A stretch of DNA of 41,242 nt, taken from IMG/VR virus record IMGVR_UViG_3300021401_000020, positions 1-41,242 of that record, one strand, 5' to 3'. The notes below the pieces were generated by a model. That model was not told the DNA's origin. It was given only the letters and a program-made list of their open reading frames with translations, and searched no databases. The stretch is from a virus. Each line of letters starts with the position of its first letter. The first letter of the stretch is position 1. A program made the position numbers and the translations under genes. Positions 2,908-18,602 of this stretch are shown one piece after another.

Positions 2908-3151
2908 CGCCGCTGGCCTCCGGCATCGCAGCAACGCACAGCCGCCCCCGCTTCACCGCCAGCACCACGCCGGCGTCGGCCATGGCGTGGCGCTGGTGAC
3001 GCCAAGCCGCGGGCCTGGAGCAGCCCAGGATGGCCGCCAGGCGCGTTATGCTGACGGCGGGGGCACCGATGCTCAGACGCGGCAGCATGGCCTTGGCGAG
3101 CGCGATGCGCGTCTTGGCGGCACGCATCTTCGGCGACTCAGACACCGGCAT
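2900..3151 (-). CDS. winged-helix/HTH-like small protein
   Basis: An 83-residue basic protein. The stretch SITRLAAILGCSRPAAWRHQRHAMADAGVV, followed by LAVKRGRLCV, has the spacing of a helix-turn-helix with a short beta wing, so DNA binding is likely. The ATG at 3151 overlaps the stop of the upstream annealase-like gene by 14 bases. Placed after a recombination gene in an early operon, it could be an accessory replication or regulatory factor. It lacks a catalytic domain. Confidence 0.6.
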   Translation of the reverse strand: MPVSESPKMRAAKTRIALAKAMLPRLSIGAPAVSITRLAAILGCSRPAAWRHQRHAMADAGVVLAVKRGRLCVAAMPEASGDG

Positions 3152-4271
3152 ACTGCTCACCCGCCACGCGCGGCCCGCCGTCCGGGTGGTCGCCTGGCCA
3201 CCCATCATTGCCTGTCACAGCATTCTCGGGGGCGTTCTCAATAGACGGCTCATCCTTCGGCGGTTCGGTGCGCGTCCAGGCTGCGCTTCGCTTCATCTCG
3301 ATCGTCTCGGCCAATGCCACCCGGTTGGCCTTGAACCAATCCAGCTTCTGCCGGGTCTTCTCGTCATCCATGAAGGCTAGATATTCGGCTCGGGTGGTGA
3401 TGGCCTCCAACTGCACGACAAGAGCCCTGTAGGCTTCGTCGGTGCGATTGGGAGCGCCATTGCCGTTCGCCGGCTTATCGGCGCCGGTTGTCTGCTGAAC
3501 CTCCGGCACGGCAAACCAATCGCCAACCAGCGACATCTCATCCTTCAGGCTCGTGTAAATCTTGCGAAGCTGGAGCACCTGGGCGGGGCGGATCGCTTCG
3601 GCGCGACATTGGCACCGTGTCTCGATCTGCTGCCGGGTGACACCGATGGCCTCGAACGCCGCGAGAACCTTCTTGATGCCATCGGGGGACACGTCGGCGC
3701 TTGCCGCCAGCGTCTGCTCACACTGCGTTTGCGCGGCCTCCGTCACGTCGCCTGGAATGACAGTGAGCAGCACAGCCCGCTTGCGGCGTTGGCCCATGTT
3801 GGCGATCAACTCGTAAATGTCGCGTTCGTCAGTCAGCCTGTAGCCGCCCTGCTTTGTGTCACGCCAGTGTCTCACTTGAAACTGGCGCTCGTCGTAGAAG
3901 CCGGTCTCCAGATCCCACGCGTACGCCACGCACTCGCTGTATCCATCTCCCCGGCTGATCTCCTTGATGCCGGAAGCGATGTTGCCCCAGCGACGCGCCA
4001 TGTTCTCGGCCAGGCGGATGGACGGACCAGAGATCGCGCTTCCTCCCTTGGCGTACTGGTAGAGCGAGCTTTCGGCCAGAGTGGTGCGCGTGCAGTCCTG
4101 CAAGATCGCGTCCATGCAGCGGATTGGATCGCGCGGATTGGAGCGCGCGATTATCATCCGGGCCTGGACTTCCGCGATGGCGCGCTGCTGTTCTACGCTG
4201 ACCAAGGCGCCGGGTGTGGCACGAGCAGCGCGATCGTCGGCGAACGGGTTGGCGACGGTGATGGCGTTCAT
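3138..4271 (-). CDS. RecT/annealase-like recombination protein (candidate)
   Basis: A 377-residue protein. The segment SAISGPSIRLAENMARRWGNIASGI, about a fifth of the way in, is the signature of a common phage family seen in early operons beside nucleases and Gp157-like proteins. I recall that family as single-strand annealing or RecT-like, without being able to verify it. Further marks are the basic IANMGQRRKRAVLLTVIPGDVTEAAQTQCEQTL stretch and AFEAIGVTRQQIETR...LRKIYTSLKDE. The last 70 residues are disordered and acidic. The ATG is preceded by AAGGAG at an 8-base spacing. The likely role is annealing or strand exchange in phage recombination. Confidence 0.6.
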   Translation of the reverse strand: MNAITVANPFADDRAARATPGALVSVEQQRAIAEVQARMIIARSNPRDPIRCMDAILQDCTRTTLAESSLYQYAKGGSAISGPSIRLAENMARRWGNIASGIKEISRGDGYSECVAYAWDLETGFYDERQFQVRHWRDTKQGGYRLTDERDIYELIANMGQRRKRAVLLTVIPGDVTEAAQTQCEQTLAASADVSPDGIKKVLAAFEAIGVTRQQIETRCQCRAEAIRPAQVLQLRKIYTSLKDEMSLVGDWFAVPEVQQTTGADKPANGNGAPNRTDEAYRALVVQLEAITTRAEYLAFMDDEKTRQKLDWFKANRVALAETIEMKRSAAWTRTEPPKDEPSIENAPENAVTGNDGWPGDHPDGGPRVAGEQYAGV

Positions 4272-4276
4272 AAGTC

Positions 4277-4768
4277 CTACTCCTTGCTGACGACCTTGAC
4301 GTTTAGGCGCATATCGTTCGGCACCACGATGCGCGCGCCGGGTATTTCGGATTTCTCCAGCGCAGCCTTCAGAGATTTACGGTCAAGCTCCGGCGGCTTC
4401 GTCACGAAGAAATGGCGCGGGATAATGGCCTCGTCGTCGATGCTCAAAAATGACGGCTTTTTGGACAGATAGGCCACGATAGCCCCGTCCGTCGCTTTCG
4501 TGCATCCAACCGAGTCCATCTGCTCAGCCAGCGCCGCGCGCATGTCCTTCACGGCCTGGTCGGCTGTATCGCGCAGATGCTCGGCCGCGAGGATGGTGGA
4601 CGCCATGGCAGCCATGGTCTCCACGATATCGGTGACGCCAGCGGCCTTCTTGTGCGAGCTGGCATAGTCAGCTCCGGCGCGATAGACAGGGGCGTAGGCG
4701 TCGGCCATGGCCTTGTGCAGCGTGTCGCGCGATTGCGTCTCATAGCCGCTGGGCGCGCGCTCGCTCAT
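4277..4768 (-). CDS. Gp157-like phage protein
   Basis: A 163-residue protein resembling the siphovirus Gp157 family. It has a helical N-terminal half with charged heptads (ADQAVKDMRAALAEQMDSVG). The later ISxDDEAIIPRHFFVTKPPELDRKSLKAALEKSEIPGARIV segment is the family's most conserved part. Gp157 proteins occur beside annealases and single-strand-binding genes; one member has been tied to phage resistance and nuclease modulation. The ATG at 4768 forms an ATGA overlap, and an in-frame start at 4792 is less economical. Its position next to the RecT-like gene fits a recombination module. Confidence 0.7.
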   Translation of the reverse strand: MSERAPSGYETQSRDTLHKAMADAYAPVYRAGADYASSHKKAAGVTDIVETMAAMASTILAAEHLRDTADQAVKDMRAALAEQMDSVGCTKATDGAIVAYLSKKPSFLSIDDEAIIPRHFFVTKPPELDRKSLKAALEKSEIPGARIVVPNDMRLNVKVVSKE

Positions 4769-4959
4769 CGCGCCGTCTCCTTCGCTGCCCACACAGGATC
4801 AGGTTCGCGGTTGCGGAGTTTCCACGCTTCGGCAATCACCGGGCCTACCTCAGAGACATCGAACAAGAACGTCAACTTTGGCATGTGGATGGTGACGGGG
4901 CTTTTGTCGGGCAACCGTCGCAGTGCCTCACACAAGTTCCACAGGTCCTCGTCTATCAT
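4765..4959 (-). CDS. small hypothetical protein
   Basis: A 64-residue acidic N-terminal, basic C-terminal protein (MIDEDLWNLCEALRRLPD, then VTIHMPKLTFLFDVSEVGPVIAEAWKLR). Alternating beta and helix suggest a compact alpha/beta fold. It overlaps both neighbours by 4 bases. No family is recognised. Confidence 0.7.
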   Translation of the reverse strand: MIDEDLWNLCEALRRLPDKSPVTIHMPKLTFLFDVSEVGPVIAEAWKLRNREPDPVWAAKETAR

Positions 4960-6446: not shown

Positions 6447-6789
6447 GGCCGTCGTCCCCCTCAACCTGCTCCCAACTCGCCATCACCAGTTCCCACGCCG
6501 CGGCATCGAGCGCGTTGGTCAGCGCCAGCACCGTCTCGGCCGGGATGACGCCTGACTGCTCGTGGGTGTCCTCCCAGGTCTCGACGGCGATTTCCGCGTA
6601 ATGGGCGGCGTGCATGGCGATGGCGAGCGCGGTGGCGTTGCGATCGAGGTCCCCGATGAAGTCGCGAGCGATGACCGGGAGCGCCATCAGCGCATCCACG
6701 GTCGGGGGCGGCACCGTGGCTGGCGCTAGGCGCGCGAGGCGCTCGGGGAGGCGGAGAGCACGCCACACGTCGTCGAACGGGGGGGTCAT
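6439..6789 (-). CDS. helical acidic hypothetical protein
   Basis: A 116-residue protein with a basic, Pro-rich N-terminus (DDVWRALRLPERLARLAPATVPPP). A long acidic helical C-terminus follows (ALAIAMHAAHYAEIAVETWEDTHEQSG...AAWELVMASWEQVEGDDGHD). It overlaps both neighbours by a few bases. The profile resembles small phage inhibitors or adaptors, but nothing specific is recognised. Confidence 0.65.
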   Translation of the reverse strand: MTPPFDDVWRALRLPERLARLAPATVPPPTVDALMALPVIARDFIGDLDRNATALAIAMHAAHYAEIAVETWEDTHEQSGVIPAETVLALTNALDAAAWELVMASWEQVEGDDGHD

Positions 6790-6938
6790 TGCGCCGGCTG
6801 CCCGCGGCTACAGAACCGGCATCCGCCGAGCCAGTGCGCGCCCCTGGCCATTCCCAGACATGCGAGGCAGAGCGGCACCGCGACCGCGCGCATGTCCGCC
6901 GCAAGCCGCGCGCCCTCGCGGGCCAACGGGCTGTTCAA
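6786..6938 (-). CDS. small four-Cys protein, TTG start (uncertain)
   Basis: A possible 50-residue protein with CLACLGMARGAHWLGGCRFC, a plausible zinc knuckle. The TTG at 6938 overlaps the upstream stop (AGTTGA), like the other couplings here. The same frame stays open back to an ATG at 7472, which would give 229 residues. However, in 6935-7132 that frame has poor third-position GC whereas the 65-residue gene has good GC, so I prefer the short version. An ATG giving 35 residues is a second alternative. Confidence 0.45.
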   Translation of the reverse strand: MNSPLAREGARLAADMRAVAVPLCLACLGMARGAHWLGGCRFCSRGQPAQ

Positions 6939-7132
6939 CTCCGGGGGCGGGATCGAGGCGTCGTAGGCGGGGGCGGCAGCGCCGGCTCGATCAATGCCCT
7001 GATCGCCTCCAGCTCGATCCGGATCATCCGGGGCATTACCCGCCCGGATTGGAGTAATCCGGCCAGCCTCCGATCCACCTCCGTCAGCAATTCCGTCATC
7101 TGACGCCAGTTGCGCGGAGCACGAACCGGCAT
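6935..7132 (-). CDS. small helical basic protein, first clear gene of the left operon
   Basis: A 65-residue protein with an amphipathic helix pair (MTELLTEVDRRLAGLLQSGRVMPRMIRIELEAIRALIEPAL) and a Pro/Arg tail. Two adjacent ATGs exist. GGAGG lies only 2 bases before the first and 5 bases before the second, so I use the second, at 7132. Third positions are strongly G/C, which supports coding. It is the first well-supported gene downstream of the putative left promoter and may be an early regulator. No family recognised. Confidence 0.7.
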   Translation of the reverse strand: MPVRAPRNWRQMTELLTEVDRRLAGLLQSGRVMPRMIRIELEAIRALIEPALPPPPTTPRSRPRS

Positions 7133-7249
7133 CATTGCCTCCTATACGCGATAGATCAGACCCGATCATGTATCCGTGATTGATTGCAACCGAACGTAAC
7201 GGGTCATTGCGCTCCCCGCTGTGGATAAGCGATACTGATTTGATATCCC

Positions 7250-7289
7250 GCAATTTTTTGGTAAATTCACGCAAATTTTTTGCTGCGTG
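7250..7289. repeat. AT-rich direct and inverted repeat patch
   Basis: CGCAATTTTTTG (7250-7260 region) recurs as CGCAAATTTTTTG at 7270-7282, about 20 bases apart. The second copy sits inside an inverted repeat, CACGCA at 7268-7273 and TGCGTG at 7284-7289. A-tract-like runs in phase with helical turns suggest bent DNA. This could be a binding site for host factors, an origin element or a promoter upstream element. It is seen directly, but the role is inferred. Confidence 0.5.
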
Positions 7290-7480
7290 TCCGCATCGGT
7301 TTTCGACGCTATCTCGTGGCGGGGAATGTGGCGGGGGAGTTACAATCTGGCATCGTGCCGAAGCCGAGGCCGCAGCCGGAGCAGTCGCCGACGCCCACGC
7401 CAACGCTTCCGATGTAGAATCTGGGCCGTCAAAGCCAGCAGGGAGGTATTGGCCGTGGAAGGTGCGCTGCATCGTCGAAA

Positions 7481-7498
7481 CCTCCGTGTGAACGGAGG
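7481..7498 (-). promoter_or_regulatory. palindrome covering a Shine-Dalgarno sequence
   Basis: Arms CCTCCGT and ACGGAGG with a 4-base loop. On the minus-strand transcript the distal arm contains the GGAGG that precedes the ATG at 7472, so the hairpin would pair the ribosome-binding site with its own complement. It could regulate translation, or act as a DNA operator. It depends on the transcript starting upstream of 7498, which is unknown. Confidence 0.5.
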
Positions 7499-7500
7499 TC

Positions 7501-7529
7501 AGTTTGCAAGAATGCAAACGACAAGGCAA
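7501..7529 (-). promoter_or_regulatory. candidate leftward early promoter
   Basis: On the minus strand, TTGCCT (7529-7524) and CAAACT (7506-7501) are separated by 17 bases. Operator A lies across the -10 side. The match to consensus is moderate. Its position just upstream of the left operon and under an operator supports it. Confidence 0.35.
7502..7519. promoter_or_regulatory. operator A (GTTTGCA-N4-TGCAAAC)
   Basis: A perfect 7-base inverted repeat with a 4-base centre; its core TGCA-N4-TGCA is shared with sites at 7538, 8150 and 8207. It sits over the candidate left promoter, which fits repression by the adjacent CI-like protein. Confidence 0.6.
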
Positions 7530-7537
7530 GAGCTAAA

Positions 7538-7549
7538 AGCATTTCTGCA
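7538..7549. promoter_or_regulatory. operator D, imperfect (AGCA-N4-TGCA)
   Basis: One mismatch from the TGCA-N4-TGCA core. Its centre is 33 bases, about three helical turns, from operator A, the spacing expected for cooperative repressor dimers. Weaker than the other three. Confidence 0.4.
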
Positions 7550-7611
7550 CACGAATTCTGGCCACGGTCATGCCCCGCAGCCGCCGGCAAACGATATCGA
7601 CCCGTTTTGCG

Positions 7612-8145
7612 CTAAGGTTGGGCCGTGTCCCTGTTCAGATCGCTGTCCTCTGGATCGGCTAGAAGCTCTGGAAAGAGCGGCATCAGCCGAGAGATGGCGC
7701 GTGGGGCCAGACCATCAGGATCGCCCAGCAAGAGGAAGTCCGTAGTTACCCGCATCCTTTTGGCGAACGAAATAAAGGTGGCCGTCGAGGCACAGCGGCG
7801 GCCGGCAAAGATGTCTTCCATCTCCTCAATTGACCAGCCGCAAAGATCAGCCACCGCCTCGTCACTATAAGACGGCGCCATAGCCTGTCGCACAAGTCTC
7901 ATCCGGCGCCCGATGTTCACCAACAGGCGCTGATCCGGCAATCCTGATGGAAGCGATTTTCCGCTGGCCTCGGCCAATTTGCTGAGTGTGCGGTGAGACA
8001 GGATGTGCTTGACCGGCTTGTTCATAAAGCGGGTCAAGGTTGACGGCGCAACACCAGCCTGACGCGCGAGTGTGGTCAGATCGACGCCAGCCGCGTCAGC
8101 CATCTGGCTTACCAGCCGCCTGACCGCTTCCCGTTCACTGCCCAT
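7612..8145 (-). CDS. CI-like phage repressor with helix-turn-helix
   Basis: A 177-residue protein. The N-terminal HTH is clear (DAAGVDLTTLARQAGVAPSTLTRFMNKPVKHILSHRTLSKLAEASG). A second HTH-like region follows (YSDEAVADLCGWSIEEMEDIFAGRRCASTATFISFAKRMRVTTDFLLLGDPDG). No LexA/CI Ser-Lys peptidase motif is evident, so RecA-stimulated self-cleavage is doubtful. I chose the ATG at 8145 because earlier in-frame starts run through both operators of the divergent region. It is divergent from a Cro-like gene across those operators, the classic lysogeny switch. The poor Shine-Dalgarno (AGGAT, 2 bases away) suggests weak or short-leader translation. Confidence 0.8.
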   Translation of the reverse strand: MGSEREAVRRLVSQMADAAGVDLTTLARQAGVAPSTLTRFMNKPVKHILSHRTLSKLAEASGKSLPSGLPDQRLLVNIGRRMRLVRQAMAPSYSDEAVADLCGWSIEEMEDIFAGRRCASTATFISFAKRMRVTTDFLLLGDPDGLAPRAISRLMPLFPELLADPEDSDLNRDTAQP

Positions 8146-8149
8146 ATCC

Positions 8150-8165
8150 TGTGCAGATTTGCACA
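8150..8165. promoter_or_regulatory. operator B (TGTGCA-N4-TGCACA)
   Basis: A perfect 6-base inverted repeat directly upstream of the repressor start at 8145. It shares the TGCA-N4-TGCA core with the other sites. Bound protein here would block or autoregulate the repressor transcript. Confidence 0.6.
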
Positions 8166-8199
8166 CGGGCGCCGGAGTCTGCGAATTGAAAGATTGCGC

Positions 8200-8228
8200 T
8201 TGACCGAGTGCATTTGTGCAAATAGGCT
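8200..8228 (+). promoter_or_regulatory. candidate cro promoter
   Basis: TTGACC (8200-8205), a 17-base spacer and TAGGCT (8223-8228). Operator C lies inside the spacer. A start about 7 bases downstream falls almost on the ATG at 8237, so the mRNA would be leaderless or nearly so, which agrees with the weak Shine-Dalgarno. Confidence 0.5.
8207..8222. promoter_or_regulatory. operator C (TGCA-N4-TGCA core)
   Basis: Core TGCATTTGTGCA at 8209-8220, placed between the -35 and -10 of the candidate cro promoter, so bound repressor would exclude RNA polymerase. Confidence 0.6.
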
Positions 8229-8236
8229 CTGGGGTC

Positions 8237-8452
8237 ATGGACCCGCGCCCGATTTCCACCCCCTCAGACATCGAAGCCGCCGCCAAGAAGGCAGGTCTTT
8301 CGATGGCAGAGGTGTGCCGTAGGGCCGGCGTCGCTCAGTCCACGTTCAACCGCTGGAAGAACGGCACGACGCAGCCAACGCTGGGCATCTATCAACGGCT
8401 TTGCGGCGCGGTTGCCGCTCCCTGTCCGCCGCCAACGCAGGCCGCAGCCTGA
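8237..8452 (+). CDS. Cro-like HTH protein
   Basis: A 71-residue protein with one helix-turn-helix (SDIEAAAKKAGLSMAEVCRRAGVAQSTFNRWKNGTTQPTLGIYQRL), the length and fold expected of Cro-type regulators. The ATG at 8237 was chosen over an in-frame start at 8216, which lies in operator C. The C-terminus is Pro/Ala-rich. It is divergent from the CI-like gene and is the first gene of the right operon. It should compete with the repressor for the same TGCA-type operators. It could instead be a CII-like activator. Confidence 0.75.
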   Translation: MDPRPISTPSDIEAAAKKAGLSMAEVCRRAGVAQSTFNRWKNGTTQPTLGIYQRLCGAVAAPCPPPTQAAA

Positions 8453-9174
8453 TGCCGGTCGTCATTCCCGTGACGGGCGGTTATGTGGCCGTGATCGATG
8501 ACGCCGATGCTGAGTTGGTTTTGCGGCACAAGTGGCGGGCTGCCACCCACGGGCGGTACGCCCAGACCAATGTCGGCAAGAGGACGGTATTTATGCACCG
8601 CCTCATTATGGCGCCCCCTGAAGGCTTCGAGACCGATCACGTCGATGGCGACGGACTGAACAATAAACGGGACAATCTTCGCCTCGCAACGCGATCGCAA
8701 AATCGGGCAAACAATCATTCTCAAGTCCGTAATAAGCACGGCTTTCGCGGCGTGATTCAGACGGCCCGAGGTTATTTTTACGGTCGTGTAAACAAGTACG
8801 GGAAACAGCACTTCACGGCGTCGTTCAACACACCGGAGGCCGCATCGATTGCGAGGAACAGGCTGGCCATACAGCTTTATGGCGAGTTCGTGCCGCCTTC
8901 GGAGGCGCCTCAACCCGGAATTGTGCTGTGTGCGCGGCGCGGTTTCCCTGGTGTGGTTTCCAGTGGTGCCGGTCGTTTCTACGGCCGGGTACTTAAGAGC
9001 GGCCATCACCACTACACCGCTCTCTTCGACAACCCGGAAGATGCTGCGCTTGCCCGCTGTGTGTTGGTAGCGTCGCTAGCGTCCATGCTCGCCGAAAGTC
9101 CCGCTCCCGCCCCGCGCGCTGTGCAGCCGGACCTGCTGGCCGCGCTCGCCGCTGGCCAGGACGGTGCCGCATGA
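8452..9174 (+). CDS. HNH endonuclease with two AP2-like DNA-binding repeats
   Basis: A 240-residue protein. The HNH core is FMHRLIMAPPEGFETDHVDGDGLNNKRDNLRLATRSQNRANN, with the DHVDGDGLNNK and NLR...N elements of the HNH-3 type. Two AP2-like segments follow: GFRGVIQTARGYFYGRVNKYGKQHFTASFNTPEAASIARNRLAIQLYGEF and GFPGVVSSGAGRFYGRVLKSGHHHYTALFDNPEDAALARCVL. The family comprises free-standing homing-type nucleases that nick DNA, with AP2 giving recognition. Tandem AP2 is less common. The ATG shares a base with the cro stop. The C-terminal tail APAPRAVQPDLLAAL recurs in the next gene. Confidence 0.85.
   Translation: MPVVIPVTGGYVAVIDDADAELVLRHKWRAATHGRYAQTNVGKRTVFMHRLIMAPPEGFETDHVDGDGLNNKRDNLRLATRSQNRANNHSQVRNKHGFRGVIQTARGYFYGRVNKYGKQHFTASFNTPEAASIARNRLAIQLYGEFVPPSEAPQPGIVLCARRGFPGVVSSGAGRFYGRVLKSGHHHYTALFDNPEDAALARCVLVASLASMLAESPAPAPRAVQPDLLAALAAGQDGAA
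9109..9148. repeat. 40-bp direct repeat, copy 1
   Basis: Identical to 9333-9372 and in the same reading frame; it encodes the PRAVQPDLLAAL tail of the HNH protein. The repeat suggests that a gene was inserted or duplicated between the copies. Confidence 0.85.
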
Positions 9175-9398
9175 CCGCCGCGCGCCCCGACTACTGCGCC
9201 ATCCCGGACGAGGGCCAGCCCGGATCGGATGGGCCGTGTCCCGCATGTGGCGCCACGATATCGGGCGACGATCCGGTTCGTGGTGTGTGCCAGGCGCGTC
9301 ACAACGGGCCGCCTCCGCGTGCCCCTACTCCGGCCCCGCGCGCTGTGCAGCCGGACCTGCTGGCCGCGCTCGTGCCGACCGCTGAAGCCGCAGACTGA
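9171..9398 (+). CDS. small zinc-binding protein with duplicated tail
   Basis: A 75-residue protein. It begins MTAARPDYCAIPDEGQPGSDGPCPACGATISG and continues with CQARH, giving several Cys/His that could hold zinc. Its last 20 residues repeat the HNH protein's tail (APRAVQPDLLAAL). ATGA overlap with the HNH gene. The shared tail may be a docking peptide or just a duplication scar. No family recognised. Confidence 0.7.
   Translation: MTAARPDYCAIPDEGQPGSDGPCPACGATISGDDPVRGVCQARHNGPPPRAPTPAPRAVQPDLLAALVPTAEAAD
9333..9372. repeat. 40-bp direct repeat, copy 2
   Basis: Second copy of the 9109-9148 repeat, 224 bases downstream, in frame within the 75-residue gene. Confidence 0.85.
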
Positions 9399-11398: not shown

Positions 11399-11574
11399 AC
11401 AAGACGCAGCCGATCCTGTGCGGCGTGGCAGTGCAGCGGTATCCGTCGCACCCGCAGGACACCGCACGGGCTCTGGCGCTGGCCAAGGAGGCGCTGCGGG
11501 CAGAGATACTGCGGGCAAAACGTGAGGCAGCCACAGCACCTCCCTACAAGCCTCCGCACGAGGACGCGGCATGA
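11392..11574 (+). CDS. small basic protein, TTG start
   Basis: A 60-residue protein with a long Ala/Lys/Arg helix (TARALALAKEALRAEILRAKREAAT). The start is TTG at 11392, decided by GGGAGG 5 bases upstream; no ATG or GTG is suitably placed. It overlaps the preceding gene by 7 bases and the next by ATGA. Function unknown. Confidence 0.65.
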   Translation: MVDKTQPILCGVAVQRYPSHPQDTARALALAKEALRAEILRAKREAATAPPYKPPHEDAA

Positions 11575-12365
11575 CCGCCGCGGCGCTCGCCGGCGGGACA
11601 CGCATCGTGTCGTGGTTCTCCGCAGGGGACGCCAGCGCGGCCACGACCAAGCTCGTGTTGGCGCAATACGGCGCAACGCACGAGATCGCCATTGCGCGCT
11701 GCATGGTGCCGGAGGAGCATCCCGACAACGACCGTTTTGCCGCCGACTGCGCGGTGTGGTTCGGCCAGCCGGTAATTGAGTTGCGCAGCACGGAATACGC
11801 ATCATGCGAGGATGTGTGGACGCGCAAGCGTTACATGAGCGGCGTGGCCGGAGCGGCATGCACACTGGAAATGAAGAAGGCCGTCAGGTGGGCTTTCGAG
11901 CAGGCGTGGCAGCCTGATCTCCAGGCGTTCGGCTACACAGTGGACGAGCAGGATCGCGCCGATCGGTTCCGTGAGCAAAACCCGGATGTCCGGCTGGTCA
12001 CACCGCTGATCGAGGCGGGGCTGTCCAAAGAAGATTGCCATGCCCTTGTGCGTCGCGCCGGGATAAAACGATCGGCGATGTATGACTTGGGATTTCCGAA
12101 TGCCAACTGCATCGCATGCGTGAACATGCAGTCGCCGGCTGGTTGGAACCTGACGCGACGGCATTTCCCGGTTCAGTTTGCGGCAAGGGCGAAGCTGTCC
12201 CGTGAGCTTGGAGTGCGGCTGGTTAAGGGCACGACTGGAGACCGAGAGCGCCAGTTCCTTGACGAGTTAGACCCGCTAGCTGGACGAGGCGAGACAATCC
12301 CTTCGTCGGAATGCTCACTGCTGTGCTGGATTGCCGAGCAAAAGCTCGCGGAGCCACGGCCATGA
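11571..12365 (+). CDS. PAPS-reductase-superfamily protein, second copy in window
   Basis: A 264-residue phage-type member. The PP-loop is IVSWFSAGDASAATTKL (a degenerate SGGxxS). It is followed by PEEHPDNDRFAADCAVWFGQPVIEL, the KRYMSGVAGAACTLEMKKAVR basic/Cys segment, and GFPNANCIACVNMQSPAGW with paired Cys. The order matches a family seen beside nucleases in proteobacterial phages. It is not closely similar to the copy at 911. The likely chemistry is adenylation or sulfur transfer; substrate unknown. The N-terminus MTAAALAGGTR is shared with the next gene. Confidence 0.8.
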   Translation: MTAAALAGGTRIVSWFSAGDASAATTKLVLAQYGATHEIAIARCMVPEEHPDNDRFAADCAVWFGQPVIELRSTEYASCEDVWTRKRYMSGVAGAACTLEMKKAVRWAFEQAWQPDLQAFGYTVDEQDRADRFREQNPDVRLVTPLIEAGLSKEDCHALVRRAGIKRSAMYDLGFPNANCIACVNMQSPAGWNLTRRHFPVQFAARAKLSRELGVRLVKGTTGDRERQFLDELDPLAGRGETIPSSECSLLCWIAEQKLAEPRP

Positions 12366-17171: not shown

Positions 17172-17374
17172 GGCACCAACTCCGACCGCGCCTTGGCATA
17201 CTTGCCGATCTCCGACCACCACCGGCTGCGTGTCGTGTGCCGCTTGTGGAAATCCACCAGATCGTTCTGCGTCGTGAACGCCAGCCGCATAAGCCGCAGC
17301 CACTGCGCCGCCGTGCCCGCGTCCGGCTCAATGCCCGGAAACATCGCGCGGAACTCCTCCAGTGCCGCCTTCAT
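17168..17374 (-). CDS. small helical protein
   Basis: A 68-residue protein (MKAALEEFRAMFPGIEPDAGTAAQWLRLMRLAFTTQNDLVDFHKRHTTRSRWWSEIGKYAKARSELVP), helical with a basic C-terminal half. It overlaps the ParB-like gene by ATGA at the start, so the two are probably translated together and may interact. Unrecognised. Confidence 0.75.
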   Translation of the reverse strand: MKAALEEFRAMFPGIEPDAGTAAQWLRLMRLAFTTQNDLVDFHKRHTTRSRWWSEIGKYAKARSELVP

Positions 17375-18231
17375 GCCACGTCTCCGGGGGAAACCAGGGA
17401 CCGCAACCGACCGATCGCCGGCAACACCACCCCCTCATAGTCCGCGCCACCATCCCAAGCCGCCAGGAACTCCCGGCACGCCCGCGCCAACTCCCCATGC
17501 GCCATCACCTCAGGCTCATGCCGCGGATGATACGGCGCAGTCTCAGGCACCGGCCGCGGCGCACGGCTCACCGGTGTCCCCGCCTTCACCGCCTTAATGA
17601 CGCCCGCCGTCGCCTTCCCCTTCGGCGAAGCCGCAACCGCCTTCTCCAGCACGGCAACCGCCCCCGCCTCCCCCTCAGACCGAACGAGGAGGACCGCTTC
17701 CCGAGCACTCACCGCACCGCCGGCCACAGCCTCCCGTATCGCGTCAGGACTGGCGGCAAGGTCCAACAAATTGGCCACATGCTGCCGCGTCCGACCAATC
17801 CGCGCCCCGATCTCCGTCTCCGTCCAGCCAAACGCCACCAACCGCTTGCACACCGCCGCCTGTTCCAACGCCGACAACGGCAGCCCGTTATTCGCCGTCA
17901 GCAACATCAGCGCACGCTCCGCCGCACTGGTTCCGCGCGCCTCCGGCAGACAGGGCAAACGCTTGATCTCACACCCCCGCGCTATCGACACACGCACCGC
18001 CGCCAATCGGCAATGCCCGTCAACCACTATCGCCCGATCTCCCGCCAGTCGCACAACCAACGGCTTGGATGACAGGAACCCGATCGCCGCAATACTGTCC
18101 GCCAGCGCGAGCACATGCGCCGCCAACTCCGGTGTATCGGTGCGGACGTTGAACGCCGGATCGATGTCCAGTGCCTCGACCGGCAGGTTGAACAGATCGC
18201 TTGTGCTGTCCGCCAAATCCTTCAGCCTCAT
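17371..18231 (-). CDS. ParB-like DNA-binding / nuclease-domain protein
   Basis: A 286-residue protein. The N-terminal ParB/Srx-like domain includes IDPAFNVRTDTP, LADSIAAIGFLSSKPLVVRL and AIVVDGHCRLAAVRVSI (the D/G-GHxR box). KorB-like HTH residues follow (VAFGWTETEIGARIGRTRQHVANLLDLAASPDAI). The C-terminal Ala/Lys region is less ordered. No ParA lies nearby in the window, so it is an orphan and more likely regulatory or nuclease-like than part of a partition system. The ATG at 18231 is the start; longer frames overlap the upstream gene. Confidence 0.8.
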   Translation of the reverse strand: MRLKDLADSTSDLFNLPVEALDIDPAFNVRTDTPELAAHVLALADSIAAIGFLSSKPLVVRLAGDRAIVVDGHCRLAAVRVSIARGCEIKRLPCLPEARGTSAAERALMLLTANNGLPLSALEQAAVCKRLVAFGWTETEIGARIGRTRQHVANLLDLAASPDAIREAVAGGAVSAREAVLLVRSEGEAGAVAVLEKAVAASPKGKATAGVIKAVKAGTPVSRAPRPVPETAPYHPRHEPEVMAHGELARACREFLAAWDGGADYEGVVLPAIGRLRSLVSPGDVA

Positions 18232-18602
18232 GGCACGTCCCCCGCATCCATCGCCACGGGACCGGGCACAACCGCGCCCGCCGGCAACCACGCAAAGCTG
18301 GTCCGCACTCCAACAAACCCGTCCGCACTCGGCACCACCGTGATCTGGCATCCGCACAGCATCAGCAACGCGCACAACGTCGCCGCGCCCTTCGCCATGA
18401 TCGCCGATGCACGCGCCAGCCCAGTGCGCAGATCGGTATGGGGGAAGCCGTCAATCGCCACCCGCAACCCTTTCGTGCGGCTGCGATGCACAAACACGAC
18501 ATGTCCCGCCTTCATCACGTCGCGCAGCAACGCCCGGTCAGCATTGTTCGCCAGCATGTCAATGCGACGATCCCACGTCATACGCTTGGATTGTATCAGC
18601 AT
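18228..18602 (-). CDS. hypothetical protein with an internal lipobox/membrane segment
   Basis: A 124-residue protein. The first 68 residues are soluble (MLIQSKRMTWDRRIDMLANNADRALLRDVMKAGHVVFVHRSRTKGLRVAIDGFPHTDLRTGLARAS). It then reads MAKGAATLCALLMLCGCQITVV, a perfect lipoprotein signal (LLMLC-G-C). GAGGGG lies 6 bases before the ATG at 18602. Either the protein is a membrane-anchored fusion, or a second product starts at the internal ATG at 18398 (56 residues). That internal ATG has no clear Shine-Dalgarno. Confidence 0.65.
   Translation of the reverse strand: MLIQSKRMTWDRRIDMLANNADRALLRDVMKAGHVVFVHRSRTKGLRVAIDGFPHTDLRTGLARASAIMAKGAATLCALLMLCGCQITVVPSADGFVGVRTSFAWLPAGAVVPGPVAMDAGDVP

Follow-up and report, generated by a model that had tools for sequence, protein, structure and literature searches.

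Candidate operators of a CI/Cro-type switch in a virus genome related to Acetobacteraceae phages

The window analysed here, 41,242 bases long, is an entire virus record. Divergent genes for a CI-like and a Cro-like HTH protein flank a short intergenic region, and palindromic sites of one type lie in this region and beyond the end of cI. The features of the control region are listed below.

7497 to 7530, minus strand: predicted PL, TTGCCT-N17-CAAACT, a consensus match only, with OL1 in its spacer
7502 to 7519, no strand: candidate OL1, GTTTGCA-AGAA-TGCAAAC, a perfect 7+7 inverted repeat, rank 1 of the record
7522 to 7534, minus strand: 13-nt stretch, ACAAGGCAAGAGC on the plus strand, between OL1 and OL2, identical in the related virus L004
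7536 to 7551, no strand: candidate OL2, AAAGCA-TTTC-TGCACA, TGCA core with one mismatch, rank 4
7612 to 8145, minus strand: CI-like repressor, 177 aa, N-terminal HTH_3 (residues 18-65) and second HTH_31 (78-133)
8150 to 8165, no strand: candidate OR site A, TGTGCA-GATT-TGCACA, rank 2, 4 nt upstream of the CI start codon
8185 to 8200, no strand: candidate OR site B, a weak operator, ATTGAA-AGAT-TGCGCT, at the PR -35, equivalent to the middle site of the relatives
8200 to 8228, plus strand: predicted PR, TTGACC-N17-TAGGCT, a consensus match, with site C in its spacer
8207 to 8222, no strand: candidate OR site C, AGTGCA-TTTG-TGCAAA, within the PR spacer, rank 3
8237 to 8452, plus strand: Cro-like repressor, 71 aa, HTH_3

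Candidate operators and predicted promoters

Exact TGCA-N4-TGCA cores are found at 7505 (TGCAAGAATGCA), 8152 (TGCAGATTTGCA) and 8209 (TGCATTTGTGCA), and AGCATTTCTGCA at 7538 has one mismatch and lies 33 bp from TGCAAGAATGCA. An earlier, sequence-only reading had given four such sites (7502, 7538, 8150 and 8207), two of them 33 bases apart, next to a 177-residue repressor and a 71-residue Cro. All four are present where it placed them, the spacing holds between 7505 and 7538, and the two proteins are CI (7612-8145, minus strand) and Cro (8237-8452, plus strand). The sites are the cores of a longer palindrome of 16-18 bp, of which 7502-7519 is the best example. The strict TGCA-N4-TGCA type of that reading has to be relaxed, however: the predicted operators are 16-bp palindromes, TNNGCA-N4-TGCNNA, with GCA-N4-TGC as the core of the family.

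The intergenic region of the window contains two strong candidate operators and one weak one, and three are also present in relatives. The weak site (8185-8200, two core mismatches) had been overlooked. The earlier proposal of a two-operator switch is retained as a CI/Cro switch, and OR most likely has three sites rather than two. Beyond cI, operators of the same type are located at 7503 and 7536, at a leftward promoter that is a weak consensus match. Its likely -35 (TTGCCT) lies within the 13-nt stretch at 7522-7534, on the minus strand; its -10 (CAAACT) is poor, and the counterparts in the relatives L004, L070, L071 and phiKX1 are better. The sites overlap the predicted promoters, in line with the earlier assignment to the left promoter and the CI/Cro intergenic region.

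The last right operator is within the predicted promoter spacer in the window and in eight relatives with the same PR layout. The ATG of cro is 8 nt past the predicted PR -10 in the window, and a start codon is 5-8 nt past the -10 in these relatives. Since the start codon follows the -10 by only 5-8 nt, the cro mRNA is probably leaderless. No convincing candidate for the cI promoter was found.

A stem-loop (GACCUCCGUUCACACGGAGGUUU, 7478-7498, minus strand) is located at the predicted start of the leftward mRNA, and its 3' arm contains the Shine-Dalgarno sequence GGAGGU; stem-loops near the start are also predicted for the PL leaders of L004, L070, L071 and phiKX1. Behind this GGAGGU is a 228-aa ORF (6786-7472, minus strand), whose stop codon and the ATG of the following ORF (6789-6439) overlap. 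It has no PHROGs match, and its codon score is weak in the first half. A plus-strand ORF running through OL2 (7512-7745) was rejected as a gene (codon score -0.30).

Elsewhere in the window, a 45-bp direct repeat (9104-9148 and 9328-9372, 98% identical, 224 bp apart) is found in the ends of two neighbouring ORFs. A phosphoadenosine phosphosulfate reductase family protein (phrog_424) is encoded at 911-1648 on the minus strand, and the product of an ORF at 11571-12365 on the plus strand is similar to it by eye.

Related control regions and the question of chance

With the window CI as the query, no relative was found in viral_contigs or in the phage collection, and Cro was the more productive probe. 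The Cro search identified L004, a separate virus, the Cro of which is 63% identical over the best segment (57% overall) and the CI of which is 40% identical to the window CI in its N-terminus. In L004, the sites are located at 929 and 953, past the CI gene, and at 1554 and 1577, in the CI-Cro intergenic region. The second of its left sites shares the first-base mismatch of the window (AGCA), and both genomes have ACAAGGCAAGAGC between their left sites. A scan of the collection for the operator together with this conserved 13-mer gave L004 as the sole match again. Gluconobacter albidus and two Acetobacteraceae MAGs also have Cro homologues, a search of 299 Acetobacteraceae genomes yielded further family members, and there are weak plasmid matches (Pantoea). 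Going by homologues only, the host of the window phage is probably among the Acetobacteraceae.

Five of the related prophage control regions (L035, L040, L070, L071 and L072) each have three intergenic sites in a common layout: A is next to the start of CI, B has its end at the PR -35, and C is between the -35 and the -10. Left operator doublets at 24 bp spacing are also found in L071 and phiKX1. The operators were wrongly placed in an automatic alignment of the left regions, which therefore does not contribute to the results. The earlier idea of one repressor recognition sequence in left and right control regions is supported by homologous CI/Cro pairs, in which this palindrome occurs at both of these positions. 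The half-sites differ among the phages (TGCGCA, TGTGCA, TGAGCA, TTTGCA), even between two prophages in one Gluconobacter genome.

Solitary Cro homologues, with operator-like sites at their start, are located in two Acetobacteraceae MAGs (L030, 7900-8400, and L031, 5410-5910). These genomes have no match to the window CI, and the genes look like domesticated chromosomal genes. Upstream of a more distant Cro (45%), at about 690-720 of L029, the palindrome is GTTCA-TTTT-TGAAC instead, which suggests that operator specificity has shifted.

A weight matrix was built from 15 sites in the control regions of L035, L040, L070, L071 and L072, all Acetobacteraceae prophages; the window and L004 were both left out. 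L035 and L040 share one genome, and the set therefore amounts to four genomes' worth; in L070, the gene at the place of Cro is not recognisable as Cro. The 15 sites were chosen by eye, and the tests on the window and L004 are independent of that choice being complete. Among all positions of the 41 kb, this matrix ranks 7503, 8150, 8207 and 7536 as 1 to 4, and site B (8185) comes next, disregarding a frame that overlaps site C. At the lowest of the four scores, 0.22 matches are expected per 41 kb. This value is from 22 control phage loci, which are phages with the same recombination gene, mostly unrelated repressors, and in most cases no detectable CI/Cro homologue. None of 1000 column-shuffled matrices had its top four clustered as tightly. 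With a matrix derived from L004, the window sites rank 1, 2, 3 and 7 in 41 kb. In the reverse test, the window matrix places the L004 sites at ranks 1-4 in 11.8 kb.

TGCA-rich palindromes could also have been selected post hoc from chance occurrences. When one mismatch is tolerated, the record shows no enrichment of the bare 12-mer (17 found vs 22 expected), which would fit a chance origin. The exact motif has only one further copy in 41 kb, at 4091. With its flanks included (TTTGCA-N4-TGCAAA, up to 2 mismatches), it matches the whole record only at 7503, 8150 and 8207, so that the frequent random occurrence named earlier as evidence against the motif is not seen once the flanks are counted. 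Three copies were reached in 2 of 2000 dinucleotide shuffles (all 4-mers, gaps 0-10, two non-coding stretches). The operator signal is in the clustering and the flanks, not in the count of the bare 12-mer. The cross-genome tests recover the sites, by the matrix from other prophages and reciprocally with L004, and they thereby refute a chance origin, to which we assign a vanishingly small probability.

The repressor and the proposed switch

No S24 peptidase match was found in the window CI or elsewhere in the record, and L004 and L044 are likewise without this domain. Peptidase_S24 is present in the CI of five relatives (L070, L071, L072, L032 and phiKX1). Residues 75-173 of the window CI resemble a stand-alone protein of ~130 aa from many Acetobacteraceae genomes (29-35% identity). 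An XRE-type HTH fold is predicted for the second domain (pLDDT 80.6, pTM 0.72), with C.AhdI as the best PDB match (Foldseek E 3e-4); the full-length CI model is weak in this half. The recognition helix of the second domain is acidic (SIEEMED vs DASTLNK in the relatives), and for this reason our guess is that a dimer role is likelier than DNA binding.

The absence of S24 bars the term lambda-type cleavable repressor for this CI, not the term CI/Cro switch for the region. As CI has no S24 domain, its induction is probably not by RecA-stimulated self-cleavage. We tentatively consider a two-headed CI, possible but less likely than not, in which the N-terminal HTH keeps the operator specificity and a second HTH-type domain, related to a host chromosomal XRE protein, replaces S24. 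If true, the second domain would serve in dimerisation or connect the repressor to host regulation, and the phage would combine the usual operators with an inducer other than RecA-stimulated self-cleavage. The window shows how a repressor may swap its induction domain and yet keep its operators.

The kinship of this domain with a host XRE protein makes cross-talk conceivable, and a host regulator, rather than the phage repressors, might recognise the sites. A shared regulator would not explain half-sites that vary by phage, even within one Gluconobacter genome, and phages that lack this CI/Cro seldom contain the motif; such a regulator is very improbable. It is also unlikely, if less so, that only Cro (or only CI) binds the sites while its partner acts on DNA elsewhere, in which case the common layout would mirror just one of the two regulators. 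The solitary Cro genes of L030 and L031, which keep operator-like sites without CI, would fit this arrangement, as would PY54, where Cro binds OR3 only (PMC4488713). However, every two-gene relative has the sites at both ends of cI, in PR and PL, CI and Cro have the recognition-helix motif ST-x-x-R in common, and a search of the switch region detected no second repeated palindrome.

We put the probability that the sites are operators of a lambda-type CI/Cro switch at about nine in ten. A CI dimer or a Cro dimer would sit on each 16-bp palindrome, with one recognition helix per half-site, at right sites A (8150), B (8185) and C (8207) between cI and cro and at left sites 7503 and 7536 on the far side of cI. 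By occupying C, together with B, CI would cover the cro promoter, the -35/-10 spacer of which contains C. With CI at the left pair, the leftward operon would be switched off; this operon includes a Mu Gam-like gene (4277-4792) as well as a probable recombination gene. The leftward genes include one for a 377-aa protein (3138-4271; phrog_3657, no function given), which we take to be a RecT-like annealing protein. Site A is 4 nt away from the start codon of CI, and Cro, or CI in excess, would turn cI down from there. On the lambda paradigm, CI would occlude PR and PL, and Cro at A would block cI transcription. We infer binding, an order of affinities, co-operativity or looping, and the sharing of sites by CI and Cro.

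The predicted switch would decide between dormancy and growth of the window phage. In the record, which is possibly incomplete, there is no match for an integrase (tyrosine, PF00589; serine, PF00239) or an rve transposase (PF00665), and none for protelomerase (PF16684) or ParA (AAA_31). Because no integrase was found, we infer lysogeny, a part of the earlier reading, from CI/Cro alone, and this CI is without the usual self-cleavage domain. A ParB-like protein (phrog_1033) is encoded at 17371-18375 on the minus strand, without a detected ParA or integrase, and is a possible hint of a plasmid-like prophage.

Comparison with known phages

The operator arrangement is ordinary. The set recurs in related phages, and it follows the known lambda/N15 plan with a variant of the repressor. 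A limited literature search found no description of the operator code of Acetobacteraceae CI/Cro switches, and this family of sites appears to be undescribed. It offers an operator code, open to testing, for one set of phage and prophage switches of the Acetobacteraceae, and the natural variation in half-sites and recognition helices can be used to study shifts in specificity.

As in lambda, cI and cro are divergent, one of the three palindromic operators that separate them overlaps PR, and a second operator group is located at PL beyond cI. The window differs from lambda in having two left sites instead of three, another operator sequence, a wider A-B spacing, a CI without the S24 domain and a probably leaderless cro, where lambda has a leaderless cI message from PRM.

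The operator count equals that of N15, with three right and two left operators (PMC4488713), and in PY54, its sister phage, the cI and cro mRNAs are leaderless (PMC4488713). The likeness to N15 is one of layout. In contrast to N15, the window has no detected protelomerase or ParA, and its left sites have no visible control of a repA gene.

The Gluconobacter albidus prophages (L032/L040 and L035) have three intergenic operators, a leaderless-type cro start, and a CI N-terminus and a Cro homologous to those of the window. Their half-sites, however, are mostly TGCGCA and their CI has the S24 domain; no clear left doublet was found in the 3 kb examined.

The Komagataeibacter phages phiKX1 and phiKX2 (LC644975 and LC644976), the latter compared by annotation and proteins only, also have a homologous CI N-terminus and Cro. 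They differ in the antirepressor gene that adjoins their CI. The operator of phiKX1 is GTGnA-N4-TnCAC, with a relaxed fourth base, and its CI has the S24 domain, whereas its left doublet, its three right sites and the positions of its operators in the PR and PL spacers are like those of the window.
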